In this document: one piece after another, positions 38,009-39,464 of the stretch
Numbering within the stretch: position 1 is the stretch's first letter
Layout of the letters: each line of letters opens with the position of its first letter
NCBI GenBank assembly: GCA_020723485.1
Contig: DYIU01000002.1
Coordinates: 901,190 to 965,189 of the forward strand
Direction: 5' to 3'
DNA length: 64,000 nucleotides
From: Acidimicrobium ferrooxidans
GTDB taxonomy: Bacteria; Actinomycetota; Geothermincolia; Fen-727; Anoxymicrobiaceae
The notes under the pieces: generated by a model
What the model saw: only the letters and a program-made list of their open reading frames with translations
What the model was told of the DNA's origin: nothing
The model's database searches: none
Made by a program: the position numbers and the translations under genes

Positions 38009-38014
38009 ATTATA
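38009..38014 (-). promoter_or_regulatory. -10 element for a probably leaderless fhaA mRNA
   Basis: A perfect TATAAT on the minus strand at 38014-38009 predicts a start site at about 38002-38000, that is at the fhaA ATG. No Shine-Dalgarno can fit. Leaderless mRNAs are common in actinobacteria. Confidence 0.6.
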
Positions 38015-38082
38015 CAATGCGGCGCCCTCACGCCCCTCCGCCCGGTCGGCCGGGCCTGATAAGCGTAGACGGAGATCTCTCG

Positions 38083-38113
38083 AAATGAAAGAAGGCGGGC
38101 CAGTAGGCCCGCC
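38083..38113 (-). terminator. Rho-independent terminator of the 52-residue gene
   Basis: On the minus strand GGCGGGCC, loop TACT, GGCCCGCC is followed by TTCTTTCATTT. It lies 26 bases after the stop of the 52-residue gene and directs termination before the fhaA promoter. Confidence 0.8.
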
Positions 38114-38138
38114 CTTGCATATGTCGGGGTTACGGCGG

Positions 38139-38297
38139 TTAACGCTGTTGTGTGGGCCAGTAAAGGAGCAGCTCGCCGTGGTGGGAGCGGGGTCTCCGGC
38201 TTCCCAGCAATTTCGAATGCCACCCGGTCTGCCGGCGCGTATAGACCGACACCTTGATCGGGACCGTTGTTAGCTCCAGCGCCTGTGACTTTCTCAT
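38139..38297 (-). CDS. Orphan 52-residue basic protein
   Basis: ATG at 38297 is preceded by GGAGGG with a six to seven base spacer. The frame runs 53 codons to TAA and is followed by a terminator, so this is a complete stand-alone gene. The protein starts MRKSQALELTTVPIKVSVYT, is rich in Arg, His, Ser and Leu (RRPRSHHGELLLYWPTQQ near the end), and has no signal, transmembrane helix or cysteine. I do not recognise a family. The rest of the 517-base gap 38001-38517 holds the fhaA -10, this gene and its terminator, an AT-richer stretch at 38340-38395 and a palindromic repeat. Confidence 0.55.
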   Translation of the reverse strand: MRKSQALELTTVPIKVSVYTRRQTGWHSKLLGSRRPRSHHGELLLYWPTQQR

Positions 38298-38458
38298 CGC
38301 AATCCCTCCGTGCTCCGTACTCGTTACTCTATTCGGAACAGACGAGGCAAACCTTGCGGTAATTACAAGAAATAATCAGAAAAATTCACGAGCGGTACGA
38401 GCCGGCGGCGCCCGGCAAAGGGGCGCCGCGCGCCGGCGCAGAAAGCAAGAAAGGAATC

Positions 38459-38487
38459 GCAACAATGGGGTCAGGTCACTTTGTTGC
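38459..38487. repeat. Palindromic repeat unit (copy 4)
   Basis: A 29-base unit with 7-base terminal inverted repeats GCAACAA/TTGTTGC around GGGGTCAGGTC. It has the same length and core as the unit inside the flavoprotein gene at 4604-4632, read on the other strand. It lies about 30 bases upstream of the TSUP gene start. Confidence 0.75.
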
Positions 38488-38517
38488 ATTCCGCCGCTCG
38501 GAACAGGATGTGGTCAT

Positions 38518-39414: not shown

Positions 39415-39440
39415 ACATTGGGATCAGACCCCATTGTGCA
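39415..39440. repeat. Degenerate palindromic repeat (copy 5)
   Basis: ACATTGGGATCAGACCCCAT is an imperfect palindrome with the GGG-TCAG-ACCCC core of the repeat family, in the 80-base gap between the TSUP and DUF6049-like genes. It may be a decayed copy. Confidence 0.45.
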
Positions 39441-39464
39441 TTATAAGGTGGTAGTAAGAGGACA

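Follow-up and report, generated by a model that had tools for sequence, protein, structure and literature searches.

Does the DNA upstream of fhaA hold a small protein-coding gene? In the window, the 64,000-nucleotide stretch of actinomycete DNA analysed here, 517 bases separate the ATG of fhaA (38000) from the likely TTG start of a TauE/TSUP gene (38518); Pfam assigns FhaA_N and FHA domains to the protein on one side of this gap and TauE to that on the other. An earlier sequence-only reading placed in the gap an orphan gene of 52 codons, running from a Shine-Dalgarno (SD) sequence to a terminator. Its anatomy, namely, GGAGGG, ATG, 52 codons, TAA and an eight-base hairpin with a T-rich tail, was recovered when the minus strand was re-read (Table 1), with the stop codon 25 bases before the hairpin. 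The reading that we favour, at about an even chance, is a lineage-specific, leftward short unit that ends at the terminator, with an ORF that is perhaps translated and no sign of a conserved protein.

Table 1. Features of the fhaA-TSUP gap (window coordinates)
Feature	Position	Strand	Remarks
Shine-Dalgarno-like GGAGGG	38304..38309	minus	6-base spacer to ATG
52-codon ORF	38139..38297	minus	ATG 38297 to TAA ending 38139; no homologue found
Intrinsic-terminator-like hairpin	38082..38115	minus	8 perfect G+C pairs, tetraloop, T-rich tail
Stem and loop, GGCGGGCC-TACT-GGCCCGCC	38113-38094	minus
Tail, TTCTTTCATTTC	38093-38082	minus
Extended stem	38115-38092	minus	10 pairs, one of them G-T (looser scan)
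fhaA -10 box TATAAT	38009..38014	minus	8 bases before fhaA ATG

The terminator and the chance content of the gap

The hairpin combines a G+C stem with a T-rich run, as in intrinsic terminators, and does so beyond chance expectation: among 2000 dinucleotide shuffles of the 517-base gap, a strict terminator hairpin arose in 4. The tail is only moderately T-rich, and a looser scan found one terminator against 0.7 expected. Including this site, the genome carries three copies of the exact stem; the second lies immediately behind a 494-aa ORF and the third between a pair of convergent ORFs. Its rarity in the shuffles and the identical stems behind genes at two other sites make the hairpin a probable true terminator, and a terminator here implies that the gap is transcribed leftward.

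The same shuffles put the remaining elements into perspective. Counting three start codons and either strand, an ORF of at least 52 codons occurred in 1853 of the 2000 shuffles and one with a loose SD in 188, and an SD-preceded ORF followed by a strict hairpin within 80 bases was found in none. The rarity of this ordered set is carried mostly by the hairpin; the reading frame is unremarkable, the SD is modestly unusual and the hairpin is clearly non-random. The looser scan found no consensus sigma-70 promoter for the unit; by eye only, TAGAGT (38331-38326) might serve as a -10 box. The commonness of such frames and the missing promoter speak for there being no transcription unit here, the frame and its SD having arisen by chance and the hairpin serving only to keep stray transcripts, leftward or antisense, from running into fhaA. 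However, this explanation does not sit well with the lack of the ordered set in all 2000 shuffles, even if that figure is driven by the hairpin, and we consider it quite improbable.

The ribosome binding site preceding the start is of a kind uncommon at chance frames: an SD 6-mer of the GGAGGG class at such a distance precedes 1 of 303 shadow ORFs, and 31 of 233 genes have one before at least one of their possible starts. The occurrence of SD, stop codon and terminator in this order argues for something selected, and we count it against an unselected reading. Nevertheless, a strong SD and a terminator around a frame are by themselves no proof of a conserved gene.

Coding signals in the 52-codon frame

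Two sets of codon frequencies were used to score the ORF. With the first, for which the window was pooled with 12 stretches sampled from its own genome (304 kb), the ORF scored -7.9 bits, a value as low as that of 8.7% of equal-length gene segments and matched or exceeded by 43% of 319 shadow ORFs. The second was built from a cleaner set of 233 ORFs which, being selected by the same score, flatters genes; here, the ORF scored -10.8 against 29.3 +- 12.0 for gene segments (0.5% as low) and -23.4 +- 29.6 for shadow ORFs, with scores at least as high for 44% of the 303 shadow ORFs and for 27% of 71 intergenic ORFs. The codon verdict on the ORF thus varies with the training set. The encoded protein is rich in R, L, S and T and has a pI of 11.6; a pI of at least 11 is found for 3% of genes versus 62% of shadow ORFs. 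The difference in G+C content between third and second codon positions is +0.235 in the ORF, compared to a gene mean of 0.41. Values at least as high occur in 0.6% of its shuffles, 13% of intergenic ORFs and 27% of shadow ORFs, and values no higher in 9% of gene segments; this is a mild gene-like signal. Taken together, these coding signals disagree and on balance speak against an ordinary gene.

The sequence-only reading had argued that the frame falls below the usual length cut-off and hence would be missed. This argument is weak, since Prodigal, a common gene finder, has a minimum gene length of 90 bases, which 52 codons exceed; an omission would therefore stem from a coding score that is too low.

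A real orphan small-protein gene, monocistronic, restricted to the genus or species and encoding a basic 52-residue protein, would account for the ideally spaced GGAGGG, the stop codon 25 bases ahead of the hairpin and the positive G+C skew. We nevertheless regard such a gene as unlikely: no homologue turned up in the genomes searched, and both codon usage and pI resemble those of chance ORFs. A single-sequence AlphaFold2 model of the protein is of low confidence (pLDDT 58.8, pTM 0.23), which for an orphan is little informative.

Alternatively, the terminator beside a short unit and the un-gene-like codons might denote a non-coding RNA, either a trans-acting sRNA or an attenuated leader, in which the ORF is incidental. 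This appears improbable, because the presumed transcript (38345-38085) is no more stably folded than its shuffled versions (z -0.19), Rfam contains no family matching at E<=1, and, among the other 30 genomes of the class, only three show any DNA conservation, in scraps of 20-31 bases. The ORF alone likewise displays no excess folding (z 0.71), and a known Rfam RNA was rejected on the folding and Rfam results.

Relatives and the fhaA promoter

A search of related genomes, proposed by the sequence-only reading as a check, found no homologous frame in the relatives. No convincing match to the ORF protein was obtained in 58 relatives (best E 0.018) or in 395 other genomes of the phylum, which partly overlap with these 58; the class search covered 31 genomes, including the own one, with none other from the same genus. 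The best match in the phylum (E 0.0027) lies at a place with two stops. The weak matches (E 0.018, and E 0.0027 to 0.0099 in 5 of 396 genomes) have identities of 38-47%, and some of the frames are broken by stops; given that the E-values apply to single genomes, a few such matches are expected among 396, and they were discounted. Similarly, no homologue of the ORF was found in GTDB contigs or viral contigs, matches in phages appeared only at E>=1 and that in plasmids only at E 5, so that a link to a phage or plasmid gene was rejected. Searches of Pfam, PHROGs, NCBIfam and the PDB produced no match to the protein. The orphan status of the ORF, with neither homologue nor domain match, therefore stands, whereas the proposal of a gene under selection is not borne out, given that no relative was found and that the codon usage is unlike that of the genome's genes.

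The hairpin is no better preserved than the frame: neither is kept in the relatives compared, and none of the 11 order-level relatives has, within 500 bases upstream of fhaA and in the fhaA direction, a hairpin of at least 6 pairs with a T-rich tail, one of the loci (L024) offering only 103 bases for this comparison. A near full-length fhaA is present in 11 of 12 order-level relatives, the other (G004) yielding an FHA-domain match only. Up to 1500 bases were fetched for the 11 relatives, and within these the TSUP gene is kept divergent to fhaA in two (G005 and G010). In G010, the gap between the two genes measures ~365 bases. That of G005, the nearest relative, has no ORF like the 52-codon one and contains a 180-codon frame on the fhaA strand (L018 727-1269), receiver-like by eye. 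In G006, the gene located beyond TSUP in the window stands directly divergent to fhaA. The suggestion that the position beside fhaA is meaningful finds no support in this synteny, as the contents upstream of fhaA differ among the relatives compared.

The 180-codon frame that separates TSUP from fhaA in G005 reads as a receiver domain standing alone, and the window has none at this position; the ORF as a decayed copy of this frame was rejected for want of similarity. Among the compared loci, the gap shows just one clear match at the DNA level, a stretch that is 76% identical to G005 over 58 bases (window 38412-38469, L018 616-672); a G+C-rich inverted repeat of the TSUP leader lies in or beside it.

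In 11 of 12 order-level genomes, including the own one, a TATAAT lies 6-9 bases before the fhaA ATG (the exception is G010). Taken together with the usual distance from a -10 box to the transcription start, this position predicts a leaderless fhaA mRNA, and fhaA probably has a separate, conserved promoter of the leaderless type. Such an arrangement is not general in the genome, because a -10-like box in that place precedes 6 of 233 sampled ORFs versus 3 in a shifted control. With the terminator and the TATAAT parting the ORF from fhaA, an operon or uORF relation is unlikely, and the ORF as a uORF of fhaA was rejected. It could also be imagined that the ORF is a translated proto-gene whose terminator doubles as an insulator for the leaderless fhaA message, blocking upstream RNA that would render this message leadered, SD-less and poorly translated; we consider this highly improbable.

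Also in the gap (window 38457-38492) is an element resembling REP sequences, which surrounds GACCTGACCCC and has the arms GCAACAA/TTGTTGC. The motif recurs in the window at 62, 4614, 44976 and 45040, and the genome has 58 further matching places, often in inverted pairs ~60 bases apart. Three Y1_Tnp (PF01797) matches above the cut-off were found in the genome, so that a pairing of REP elements with a RAYT-type transposase is possible. By eye, copies of GACC-GACCCC or CCTGACCCC-like motifs directly precede the fhaA TATAAT in three relatives (L022, L023 and L027), and a similar motif (window 39422-39445) precedes a TTATAAG upstream of a 708-aa ORF. The repeats may supply or flank promoters.

The favoured reading and known systems

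In favour of the lineage-specific unit are the non-random hairpin, the rare SD 6-mer, the lack of a homologue, the codons and pI unlike those of genes, and the -10 box that fhaA has of its own; against it are the missing consensus promoter, the mild gene-like G+C skew and the sensitivity of the codon verdict to the training set. Under this reading, a leftward transcript would start somewhere around 38300-38420 and end at the terminator near 38085, ahead of the separate fhaA promoter, and the terminator would thereby keep it out of fhaA. With this SD and ATG, ribosomes would be able to initiate, and the 52 codons may thus be translated, although the ORF is probably not under selection. As it stands, the ORF carries little weight, as just another short orphan frame from an uncultured actinomycete; if translated, however, it would be a candidate young gene.

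A literature search combining Rv0020c with small RNA and intergenic returned no paper. Many small proteins have been described in mycobacteria, as presented in PMC4633059, the main text of which mentions neither fhaA nor Rv0020c. As with the mycobacterial small proteins and uORFs in that paper, the ORF is a small actinomycete frame that precedes a conserved gene; unlike the uORFs, it is parted from fhaA by a terminator and a separate promoter, and hence is not coupled to it (PMC4633059).

A closer parallel might be provided by Mycobacterium tuberculosis, in which, according to PMC9094748, short ORFs are pervasively translated, mostly without purifying selection. Those ORFs have ribosome-profiling support (PMC9094748), whereas transcription and translation of the one described here, from another group of Actinomycetota, are putative. 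In common with them, it is short, lies outside annotated genes and has a weak codon signal (PMC9094748), and the unit would behave in the manner of the proto-genes of M. tuberculosis, short ORFs for which both transcription and translation are pervasive.
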